Position numbers and translations under genes: made by a program | Notes under the pieces: generated by a model | Told to the model about the DNA's origin: nothing | What the model saw: the letters and a program-made list of their open reading frames with translations, nothing else | Databases searched by the model: none | IMG/VR virus record: IMGVR_UViG_3300030333_006866 | Location: 11,653-32,684 of that record | DNA from: a virus | Reading direction: 5' to 3' (one strand) | DNA: 21,032 nucleotides | Part shown: one piece after another, positions 3,730 through 14,746 of the stretch | Numbering within the stretch: the stretch's first letter is position 1 | Layout of the letters: every line of letters starts with the position of its first letter

Positions 3730-3918
3730 TAAGGCGCAGCTACATATTATGCGTTTGACTAACCTAACTTAATAGCTGTTTTATTTATAGTTCCCATCTG
3801 AACACCGATGTCGTGTCAGTTTTTATACTGCAACTTGAAGCCAGTCACTACGCCTTAAAAATTTGAGGGAGCCCATAAACGAAGGTAAGTGCTATGGGTG
3901 TGAGAGGTGGACTCCCTC
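3730..3918 (-). ncRNA. structured noncoding RNA candidate N1 (two adjacent closed domains)
   Basis: This gene-free stretch holds two domains. Domain 1 has GAGGGAG (3865-3871) pairing with CTCCCTC (3912-3918) and CCCATA (3872-3877) pairing with TATGGG (3893-3898), stacked on one side. Domain 2 is closed by TAAGGCG (3730-3736) with CGCCTTA (3851-3857), encloses TGACT (3756-3760) with AGTCA (3843-3847), and contains a bulged hairpin at 3798-3819 (CTGAACAC with GTGTCAG). The closing helix ends next to the AAGGAG of the gene starting at 3713, so the fold could control that SD. The strand is inferred from the flanking genes. Domain 1 begins at the stop of the preceding gene and might instead act as a terminator. 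Confidence 0.55.
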
Positions 3919-7805: not shown

Positions 7806-7864
7806 TCTACCTCCTTCGTAGGGCTTTTAATTTATAAACTTTACGATAAAAATACTAGAAAAAA

Positions 7865-8300
7865 AGAAGATACTCTCGTGAAAATATTTACTCAATATTT
7901 ATCTTTCACACGTCTGCTACTTCTGATAAATAATTTCTTTATATCAGAGAGTATCTTCTCTTTATTAATGTAGTCAATGCAACTGTAACCCTTCGTCCAC
8001 GGGACTTGCCCATGAGGCTTCGGCTGGGCTTATTAAGGAAGCAGGTCCAACACGTTGCTTTTAGTTAGATGTCAGGATATCCACGCTACACTACTCCCTT
8101 TTAGCTTAGTTAATACAGCGCCATACAGGTTCTCTTAGAGTTCTGGTTTGTCCGACTCCGTGACTGACATGACTACATTAAATTTATACAAGCTTTTTTT
8201 TCGTTTAATAGTAGTGCTTTTGGGTTCTAGACATATTACTAATATTAACCAAAAGTTCCTGGAATAAACTTAGTGCAACTTCTCAGGACTGCTACTAAAC
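7865..8300 (-). ncRNA. large structured noncoding RNA candidate N2 (three adjacent domains, about 436 nt)
   Basis: The 514-nt gap between ERF and DUF6915 has no gene but holds three closed domains end to end. Domain A (8203-8300) is a three-way junction: GTTTAATAGTAG (8203-8214) with CTACTAAAC (8292-8300) encloses 8217-8226/8247-8255 and 8254-8261/8284-8290. Domain B (7965-8181) is closed by a perfect 12-bp helix (7965-7976 with 8170-8181). It encloses 7979-7986/8050-8058, hairpin 8008-8029, 8069-8075/8164-8170 and hairpin 8084-8093/8111-8120. Domain C (7865-7959) has a 13-bp closing helix and two inner hairpins. A U-rich tract follows on the - strand, so domain C may also terminate transcription. 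The 8084-8120 helix has three G-U pairs only on the - strand. Confidence 0.7.
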
Positions 8301-8319
8301 TAGTTGCATACTTGTAATT

Positions 8320-8670
8320 TTACATCAGATTCATTTTCTTTAAAGTATTCTTCTTGGTACTTGCCATCCAAGGTTTTGGTTTAATTTCTTTAAGCCAATC
8401 TTGAACTGTAGGAATAAAGCCTAGATCCTCTCTTATATGTTGTTCTGCTATAGAACGTACTGGTATTATTTTACCATCAGAGTTCTTTATTGTTATTCCA
8501 ATCTGTTCTTCACACATTTTAATACCTAATGTATGATGTCTTAAAGCACGATGTCTTATATCTCCATAATGATCTTTAGTTTGATCAAACCAATCATGTA
8601 TGTGCCAATAATCATCTTCTATACCACCAAATAGCTTTACACTTGATTTGCAATGATTAAATGACTTCAT
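8320..8670 (-). CDS. DUF6915-like protein, 116 aa
   Basis: The start overlaps the preceding stop (ATGA). The protein shows HIHDWFDQTKDHYGDIRHRA, then LRHHTLGIKMCEEQIGITI, then IIPVRSIAEQHIREDLGFIP followed by TVQDWLKEIKPKPWM. The order HDWxDxxK, HRALRHHxxGI, GxxIPVRxIAEQHxxEDLGxIPT, DWLxxIxPxPWM is how I remember the DUF6915 family of phage and mobile-element proteins, which has no assigned reaction. The conserved His and Asp residues could bind a metal ion, but a catalytic role is not established. It forms a coupled pair with the DUF6878-like gene upstream. Confidence 0.65.
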   Translation of the reverse strand: MKSFNHCKSSVKLFGGIEDDYWHIHDWFDQTKDHYGDIRHRALRHHTLGIKMCEEQIGITIKNSDGKIIPVRSIAEQHIREDLGFIPTVQDWLKEIKPKPWMASTKKNTLKKMNLM

Positions 8671-9679: not shown

Positions 9680-10114
9680 GAAGCAGTATCTGTTATTTAC
9701 AGAGCCAATAGTAGTGATCAGCCATACTGCTTCCATGCATATGTAGGTATAAGGATTGTTATCTAGTTGGCTACAGAGTGATCATCTGCCGATACCAATG
9801 CATATCATCCGTACCTCTTCATTCCTTTGTTTCAGAGTTGGACTAAGTTTATTAAATTTATGAGAGAGACCACGCTTAACTAGCACGCTAGATACGAATA
9901 CCTTGTGTTCTAGTATATTAACGAACGGTGGTTTTAGCCGTAACTCTCTCAATTGTATGAGAGCCTCACATATTCCTTTGCCTTACAAGTAAACAGGTTT
10001 TACATCTTACGAATACCATTCCTCTTGTCAAGGACTTATTTTCCCTGTAGATGACTGGCCAAATTGGAAATATGTCATCTTTACCATACAGGAGGACCAG
10101 TTATTGGCTCTCAT
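9680..10114 (-). ncRNA. large structured noncoding RNA candidate N3 (four adjacent domains, about 435 nt)
   Basis: The gap between the 10131 gene and the TTG at 9655 contains four closed domains in a row. They are 9957-9965 with 10106-10114 (ATGAGAGCC/GGCTCTCAT), 9861-9868 with 9944-9951 (TGAGAGAG/CTCTCTCA), 9735-9740 and 9746-9750 with 9792-9796 and 9798-9803, and 9680-9689 with 9724-9733 (GAAGCAGTAT/ATACTGCTTC). Inside the first, CCTGT and AGATGAC (10044-10055) pair with GTCATCT and ACAGG (10074-10092) over an inner CCAAATTGG hairpin. Nearly every base between 9680 and 10114 is inside a domain. The strand is inferred from the surrounding genes. No tRNA, riboswitch or intron core was recognised. 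Confidence 0.7.
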
Positions 10115-12843: not shown

Positions 12844-12883
12844 TATACCCTTTAATCTTAATGATTTATGAAATAAATCAGAA

Positions 12884-12929
12884 AAAAAGAAAGTGTCCAC
12901 CACAATTAAGTAGTAAACACTTTCTTTTT
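12884..12929 (-). terminator. bidirectional intrinsic terminator-like hairpin
   Basis: AAAAAGAAAGTGT (12884-12896) and ACACTTTCTTTTT (12917-12929) form a perfect 13-bp helix with a 20-nt loop, right after the stop of the 12938-13264 gene. A-rich and T-rich arms place a U-tract at the 3' side on either strand. It probably ends - strand transcripts of that gene. Confidence 0.65.
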
Positions 12930-12937
12930 AGAACTTA

Positions 12938-13264
12938 CTAAAATGGAACTTCTGACACTTTCGCAAGTTTAGTTAAGAAGTCTTTTTCGACCTCTATTTC
13001 TTCCATTTTGGTATCTACATCTCCTCTGTAGAGGTTGTAAGATTTTCCACTTGCTGATAATCGTAAATTACCTGCAAATGAAAACTTATTTTGAAGATAT
13101 TTCTGCACTAATTCGTGTTTTTCTTCATTTACCTCTATTTCTTCAAATAAAGATTGTTCGGTAGGCATAGAGATGAAGCTAGTTTCTTCTGTTATTTTAT
13201 CTTGTTTCGTATTCTCATCTTCTTTTGTTTCTCCAATAATCCAAGCTACATATTTAAGTTTCAT
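12938..13264 (-). CDS. hypothetical acidic protein, 108 aa
   Basis: The ATG at 13264 with GAGG 6 nt upstream is a better start than the GTG at 13270. The N-terminus (KLKYVAWIIGETKEDENTKQ) has a short beta segment followed by a Glu/Thr-rich linker. The second half contains LVQKYLQNKFSFAGNLRLSA, SGKSYNLYRGDVDTKMEEIE and a final helix. The family is not recognised. The gene stands alone, with a hairpin before it and a terminator after it, so it may be a separately regulated early gene. Confidence 0.55.
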   Translation of the reverse strand: MKLKYVAWIIGETKEDENTKQDKITEETSFISMPTEQSLFEEIEVNEEKHELVQKYLQNKFSFAGNLRLSASGKSYNLYRGDVDTKMEEIEVEKDFLTKLAKVSEVPF

Positions 13265-14312: not shown

Positions 14313-14746
14313 ATTATTACCTCTCTGTTTAATTACAATAACATATATAAAGAAAACATTTTCAACTAGATAGATACAAAGTAGACTAACCTTACTCTCA
14401 TGTCAGTGTGTGGATTTTAGTAATGTGTGTACATTCAGGTTATATAAAGTGATAGGTTACAGTCGTTCACACAGAGCTACACCGAACACTCTGTCAGGGT
14501 TATCGTGTCCATATGTGTGCTCTACGACACGATAAGGGGGACGAGGTGAGGTGTCTCATGTGTGGGTGGGGGAACATTACAGTTGTGTGGTGAGTTTAGG
14601 TTGAGTGATCGTAATGTAACTAGCTCAACTCAACCTAATCGAACCGCACCAACCTAGAATGTAGGGGGGTGACTATAACCTATCTCTCTCACTCACAATC
14701 TAAAACTATTTTTTGATTTTATACTCTCCTTTGTGTATATTACATT
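14313..14746. promoter_or_regulatory. 434-nt divergent control region with strong inverted repeats
   Basis: There is no gene here. It is richer in GC and in TGTG runs than the flanks. Inverted repeats include 14471-14476/14489-14494 (6 bp), 14500-14509/14526-14535 (perfect 10 bp, TTATCGTGTC arms) and 14596-14606/14628-14638 (perfect 11 bp, TTAGGTTGAGT arms). ACATTAC at 14574-14580 also matches GTAATGT at 14611-14617, crossing the 11-bp pair. A G-rich stretch at 14536-14572 has several G runs. It lies between early and late operons next to terminase, so it is the place to expect early and late promoters, an origin or a packaging site. Confidence 0.6.
14713..14741 (+). promoter_or_regulatory. 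sigma70-like promoter of the late operon, apparently leaderless
   Basis: TTGATT (14713-14718) and TATATT (14736-14741) are 17 nt apart, ideal for a sigma70-type promoter. A start site 6-7 nt downstream of the -10 box falls on or next to the ATG at 14747. There is no SD between, so the first message may be leaderless. Core consensus match is good but not perfect. Confidence 0.45.

Follow-up and report, generated by a model that had tools for sequence, protein, structure and literature searches.

The window analysed here, 21,032 nt (21 kb) of the 32.7-kb IMG/VR virus record IMGVR_UViG_3300030333_006866, encodes a primase/helicase, ERF, and a DUF6915 protein on the minus strand and terminase and portal on the plus strand. 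DNA similarity searches gave no match in 50,697 phage records or the plasmid collection, and the terminase has no near named relative, with identities below 60% everywhere. ARAGORN finds no tRNA or tmRNA in the window. A hairpin at ~12880-12940 on the minus strand (AAAGAAAGTGT..ACACTTTCTTTTTTT) is a likely terminator, and the region 14527-14745, located between the early and late blocks, is non-coding or poorly annotated and shares ~70-75% DNA identity with L182, L045, L104, L153, and L133.

Between ERF and the DUF6915 gene (phrog_8143; 8320-8670, minus strand), which often precedes arrays of the kind described here, lies a tract without a conserved ORF. The first-pass annotation had recognised this gap and divided it into three closed domains, and the closing arms of A (7865-7877/7947-7959), B (7965-7976/8170-8181), and C (8203-8211/8292-8300) pair exactly as it placed them. 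The tract also folds better than its dinucleotide shuffles on both strands (z -2.45 on the minus and -2.96 on the plus strand). Judged by comparison with related sequences, it is a series of separate modules, C, B, and A, and not one RNA (Table 1).

Table 1. Modules, helices, and candidate modules in the window, numbered from its first nucleotide.
Feature	Position	Strand	Description
Module C	8184..8319	-	Outer helix P1 8311-8319/8184-8192
C helices P2, P3	8302-8308/8274-8280; 8292-8300/8203-8211	-	
C helix P4 and variable arm P5	8284-8288/8257-8261; 8217-8255	-	
Module B	7962..8182	-	Three-way junction; P1 8170-8181/7965-7976
B helices P2, P3	8155-8159/8137-8141; 8114-8121/7979-7987 with bulge	-	
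Module M3	8035..8100	-	Nested in B arm 3, replaces hairpin loop
Plug-in tip T1	7991..8021	-	GCCUCAxGGGCAAGUCCCxUGGACGA, near base of B arm 3
Module A	7859..7961	-	13-bp perfect closing helix, then U7; terminator-like with folded insert; from fold
Module D	9959..10112	-	GAGAGCCAAUAACUGGUCCU..UAAGUCCU-arm-AAGGCAAAGGAAUAUGUGAGGCUCUC; hairpin inserted inside core (10044-10092)
Module M22	9862..9950	-	GAGAGAGUUACGGCUAAAACCACC..GUGGUCUCUCUC; related copies in L030, L105, L104, L162
Module M16	9737..9849	-	ACUUAGUCCAAC..; end near 9737 uncertain, may overlap next ORF
Candidate third-array module	3865..3918	-	Closed by GAGGGAG/CUCCCUC; from sequence and fold
Candidate third-array module	3731..3856	-	Closed by AAGGCG/CGCCUU; from sequence and fold

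Module C contains a double pseudoknot, in which P2 crosses both P3 and P4; this pseudoknot and the outer helix P1 had been overlooked at first reading. We extracted 34 distinct copies of C, whose pattern occurs on 42 viral contigs, and the copy in L049 is identical at 106/106 positions. Module B is organised around the invariant core GUCAGUCACGGA..CUAAGAGAACC..GGCGCU..AGUUGCAUUG (23 distinct copies), and its start overlaps the DUF6915 stop codon in many phages. An inner pairing of B proposed earlier (7979-7986/8050-8058) runs into a nested foreign module; covariation assigns arm 3 to 7979-7987/8114-8121 and arm 2 to 8137-8141/8155-8159. Module A has the 13-bp stem and U7 tract of an intrinsic terminator, but its ~69-nt loop is far above the usual size, and a simple terminator scan missed it. 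Its folding energy is low on both strands (z -4.16 minus, -5.23 plus), and no homolog was found among the fetched loci.

A second array, not noticed in the first-pass annotation, occupies ~9737-10112 on the minus strand and consists of D followed by M22 and M16; like array 1, it sits within the replication block. The D pattern is present on 50 viral contigs, and the hairpin inserted into the D core of the window matches a C arm in L133. Copies related to M16 occur in L115, L066, L146, L061, L030, and L032. The minus strand at 3731-3918 probably holds a third, candidate array. Its module at 3865-3918 has no homolog among the fetched loci, and the one at 3731-3856 has a single weak match (L172). 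The folding energy of the second array reaches a z of only -0.73, though D is confirmed there by homology and covariation. Folding energy is thus a weak test here and would have missed this array; it is comparative evidence that decides.

Covariation was counted on aligned cores of equal length. In C, 20 of 37 pairs changed on both sides, the corresponding 196 cells being reached in 0/500 shuffles, and slid partners yielded at most 11 pairs; P4 lies outside this support because it is almost invariant. B shows double changes in 15 of 26 pairs (0/500 shuffles) and D in 12 of 19 (145 cells; 0/500 shuffles for cells). Compensatory changes in related phages, which the first-pass annotation had named as a check, are therefore found for B and C against shuffles and slid partners, and for D against shuffles. 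G-U pairs outnumber A-C pairs 84 to 12 in B and C, with related sequences counted more than once. The gene upstream of a copy is codirectional with it in 45 of 46 cases, and the gene downstream in 47 of 48; a coarser rule gives 112 versus 9 and 109 versus 11, respectively. Because of the large G-U excess and because the copies run with their flanking genes, the modules are best regarded as minus-strand RNAs. Covariation, G-U excess, and codirectionality together support the earlier proposal of structured non-coding RNA on this strand, and we infer from strand and covariation that the modules are transcribed.

Copies of B and C are found on dozens of contigs from uncultured marine phages, where each may stand by itself or appear in a different order or among different genes. 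A first exact 24-mer pattern had zero matches in viral contigs; a 16-base B pattern matched 22, of which ~18 are genuine by further similarity, and the matches in L037, L038, L039, and L046, with no further similarity, are probably due to chance. In relatives fetched via ERF and DUF6915, the gap shows conserved blocks and a variable middle, and it may hold either B or C on its own, both in a different order, and many more closed modules. By our own sorting, ~20 module types can be recognised. They measure ~65-240 nt, are independent, arranged in tandem or nested, and have AU-rich linkers between them; across the 109 non-redundant loci mapped, the modules recognised on any one contig all point the same way. 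Each module comprises an invariant core, sometimes pseudoknotted, plus one or two arms that different types swap, and the closing helices vary in sequence within a family with their pairing kept.

Nesting and arm exchange are illustrated by M3 and T1. M3 is free-standing in L036/L053, L049, and L057, nested in B in L028/L059, and located inside a different module in L064. Comparison of an empty with a filled B arm (L055 versus L059) places M3 where the hairpin loop would be, and inspection by eye of this single M3-in-B pair revealed no target-site duplication. The T1 tip recurs elsewhere: L061/L064 carry it on arm 2 of B, and L096 on the C arm. A local comparison of variable arms gave 33 matches across scaffolds or to free modules, 0 in antisense and 0 with shuffled arms; since part of the free-module query set had been derived from arms, the independent evidence consists of the scaffold-to-scaffold matches and those to free-standing modules. 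The former comprise B2-B3, B2-C5, B3-C5, B3-D1 (58 nt, 86%), eight C5-D1, and one D1-E1, and the latter involve M3, M14, and M21. The C arms of L105 and L107 contain AAGCGAAAGCGAGTC, which we take to resemble a stretch of bacterial 23S rRNA; this could be chance or mimicry. The tract is accordingly an array of modules that each fold autonomously, placed in early operons of a group of uncultured marine phages, and we are close to certain that it belongs to a family of shuffled structured RNA modules.

The proteins encoded downstream of modules are diverse (103 in 42 clusters) and include primase-helicase, ERF, spore photoproduct lyase-like, AAA_24, DUF932, and sigma-70 region 4 proteins, among others. 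An SPL-domain protein (L005 2156-3061 and relatives) is encoded directly downstream of a B-M10 array. Of 63 primase-helicase orthologs, 17 have module D within the 420 nt upstream. A tested module precedes 12 of 49 ERF genes, and the other 37 lack any of the 11 module patterns tested, so that this absence is an upper limit. The control or packaging-related role that the position of the tract before ERF had suggested finds no footing in these neighbourhoods. B stays beside DUF6915 in L002 and L005 with ERF 3 kb away, so the link to ERF is incidental, and C adjoins many unrelated genes. DUF6915 itself is present in Streptomyces, Gordonia, and Sinorhizobium phages, and among the loci retrieved from viral contigs, those with the most distant DUF6915 lack the modules.

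Among GTDB genome contigs, there is a single match, a viral contig of 46 kb within the single-cell genome of Prochlorococcus sp. AG-436-M02 (L090 / L186-L188; G001:C10). The cell may be the host of this phage or may have been co-sorted with it; the contig is in any case a rare clue to the hosts of this group of phages. B, D, and further closed hairpins are located at ~1.7-6 kb of the contig, among early genes and on one strand. The late block (11.5-46 kb) is almost gap-free, and recognised modules are confined to the early block.

What might such modules do? Their optional presence and diverse neighbours argue against a metabolite riboswitch, for which no single downstream pathway is apparent, and against an obligatory leader, and fit accessory cargo. 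Cores that hardly vary, paired with arms that can be swapped, suggest a constant contact or geometry alongside a variable display. Together, accessory distribution and the core/arm pattern therefore favour trans-acting RNAs. We tentatively propose that early transcripts carry the modules as accessory RNA cargo, which acts in trans on host factors, a reading to which we would give not quite an even chance. In this proposal, modules would ride on early transcripts and fold on their own, and host RNases would probably cut them apart at the AU-rich linkers. Once released, the structured RNAs would target conserved components of the host, e.g., proteins or ribosomes. The core would keep a constant partner or geometry, while exchange of the arms would vary what the RNA presents, e.g., to serve as a decoy or inhibitor during host takeover or counter-defence. 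We infer the release, the stability, and the targets of the modules alike. More broadly, the modules might form a combinatorial phage RNA toolkit, in which ~20 conserved scaffolds draw on a shared pool of plug-in arms, are recombined and nested much as protein domains are, and act early and in trans on host machinery or defences; we consider this possible but doubtful.

The modules may instead act in cis, as intercistronic processing sites, protectors of 5' or 3' ends, conditional terminators, or translation-level switches that keep early genes separate and in balance. This is a serious rival because D precedes the next start codon by a median of only 31 nt (47 of 68 copies within 60 nt) and because some modules end in U-tracts, which directly follow some D copies, module A, and two hairpins of the phage in the single-cell genome. 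The position of D suits a cis role equally well, and the U-tracts are terminator-like; both count against action in trans. Modules are, moreover, nearly always located between codirectional genes, and B begins over a stop codon in many phages. A simple insulator would, however, need no near-invariant pseudoknotted core, the genes adjacent to modules are mutually unrelated, and a module may be present at or absent from the same gene. The array of many relatives also lies upstream of a putative conserved ERF promoter, which would put it outside the ERF leader there. Weighing both sides, we regard a cis role as tenable but not probable. The RNase III/intercistronic processing hairpins of T7 likewise place structured RNA between codirectional early genes; they are simple and have neither conserved pseudoknotted cores nor module exchange.

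Nested insertions, mosaic orders, many genomic contexts, and presence/absence polymorphism at orthologous sites would also be expected of mobile or shuffling cassettes, i.e., small selfish or recombinogenic sequences, MITE- or PeSL-like, whose folding is incidental. Incidental folding is at odds with the compensatory changes and the near-invariant cores, and mobility with the single orientation and the lack of a target-site duplication in the one nested case compared. No transposase or integrase was seen in the arrays, and there is no shared terminal repeat, since the closing helices differ within a family. We thus consider such cassettes unlikely. The nearest parallel for the shuffling is provided by the PeSL cassettes of T4-like phages, which consist of an early promoter and a stem-loop (Arbiol 2010; Comeau 2014, as cited in PMC4503421) and, as described there, are likewise small non-coding cassettes that shuffle modularly between early genes. 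Compared with these PeSLs, the modules described here are multi-helix and covarying, with invariant cores and shared plug-in arms. Around array 1, promoter-like matches barely exceed their number in shuffles (14 versus 10.8, sd 2.9), and U-tracts follow some modules.

Compact pseudoknotted cores at intercistronic positions would also suit ribozymes that cleave or splice themselves and thereby cut the early transcript, and the strand order of C, as we see it, loosely recalls HDV-like ribozymes. The topology resembles these only in part, however, as C is without the inner P3 hairpin expected of them, and no Rfam model of a ribozyme or intron, Group I and II included, matches the window or 20 relatives. 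We regard this explanation as very improbable. At gathering score, Rfam yields 0 matches in the window and 20 relatives (101,572 bases), and relaxed E-values add chance-level weak hits (E 6-9). The first-pass annotation had been unable to match the tract to GOLLD or ROOL, and this holds, as neither these nor any intron matches in the window. Its suggestion of a single large ornate RNA akin to GOLLD or ROOL, which a big gene-free structured phage tract with z of ~-2.5 to -3 might have recommended, is scarcely credible given that B and C occur apart, reordered, and nested with other modules and that Rfam finds nothing. Several further candidates were set aside: a coding sequence, for which there is no conserved frame; integron attC sites; and a phi29-type pRNA, which would leave the many tandem module types unexplained.

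GOLLD and ROOL are single phage RNAs of ~600 to >800 nt with a characteristic architecture, often found near tRNA islands (PMC12286853). The modules resemble them in being phage-encoded and non-coding, with elaborate pseudoknotted folds of unknown function, but are shorter, independent, tandem or nested, and equipped with exchangeable arms, in a window without tRNAs. The cyanophage motifs manA, wcaG, and PhotoRC-II are likewise conserved RNA structures beside coding genes in marine phages; each is a single Rfam motif, with PhotoRC-II linked to a particular gene family (PMC2864571). In contrast, the modules described here are modular, tied to no gene, and absent from Rfam. No description of such arrays was found in the literature searched, with subscription journals mostly outside its coverage. 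Within this incomplete coverage, we would consider the modules, taken individually, to be new RNA families and their combinatorial organisation to be of a new kind.

The comparison adds the covariation-supported RNA families B, C, and D, all absent from Rfam, and some module families would be overlooked by folding-energy z-scores alone. With covariation behind them, the folds can be tested directly by structure probing and cryo-EM. Their early location, accessory distribution, and near-invariant cores point to contacts between these RNAs and the host. Domain exchange is a well-known route of modular evolution for proteins; we know of no natural set of RNAs in which unrelated scaffolds share interchangeable arms and carry modules nested in their loops. 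If the toolkit reading is true, these arrays would do for RNA, in the arms race of phages, what domain shuffling does for proteins.
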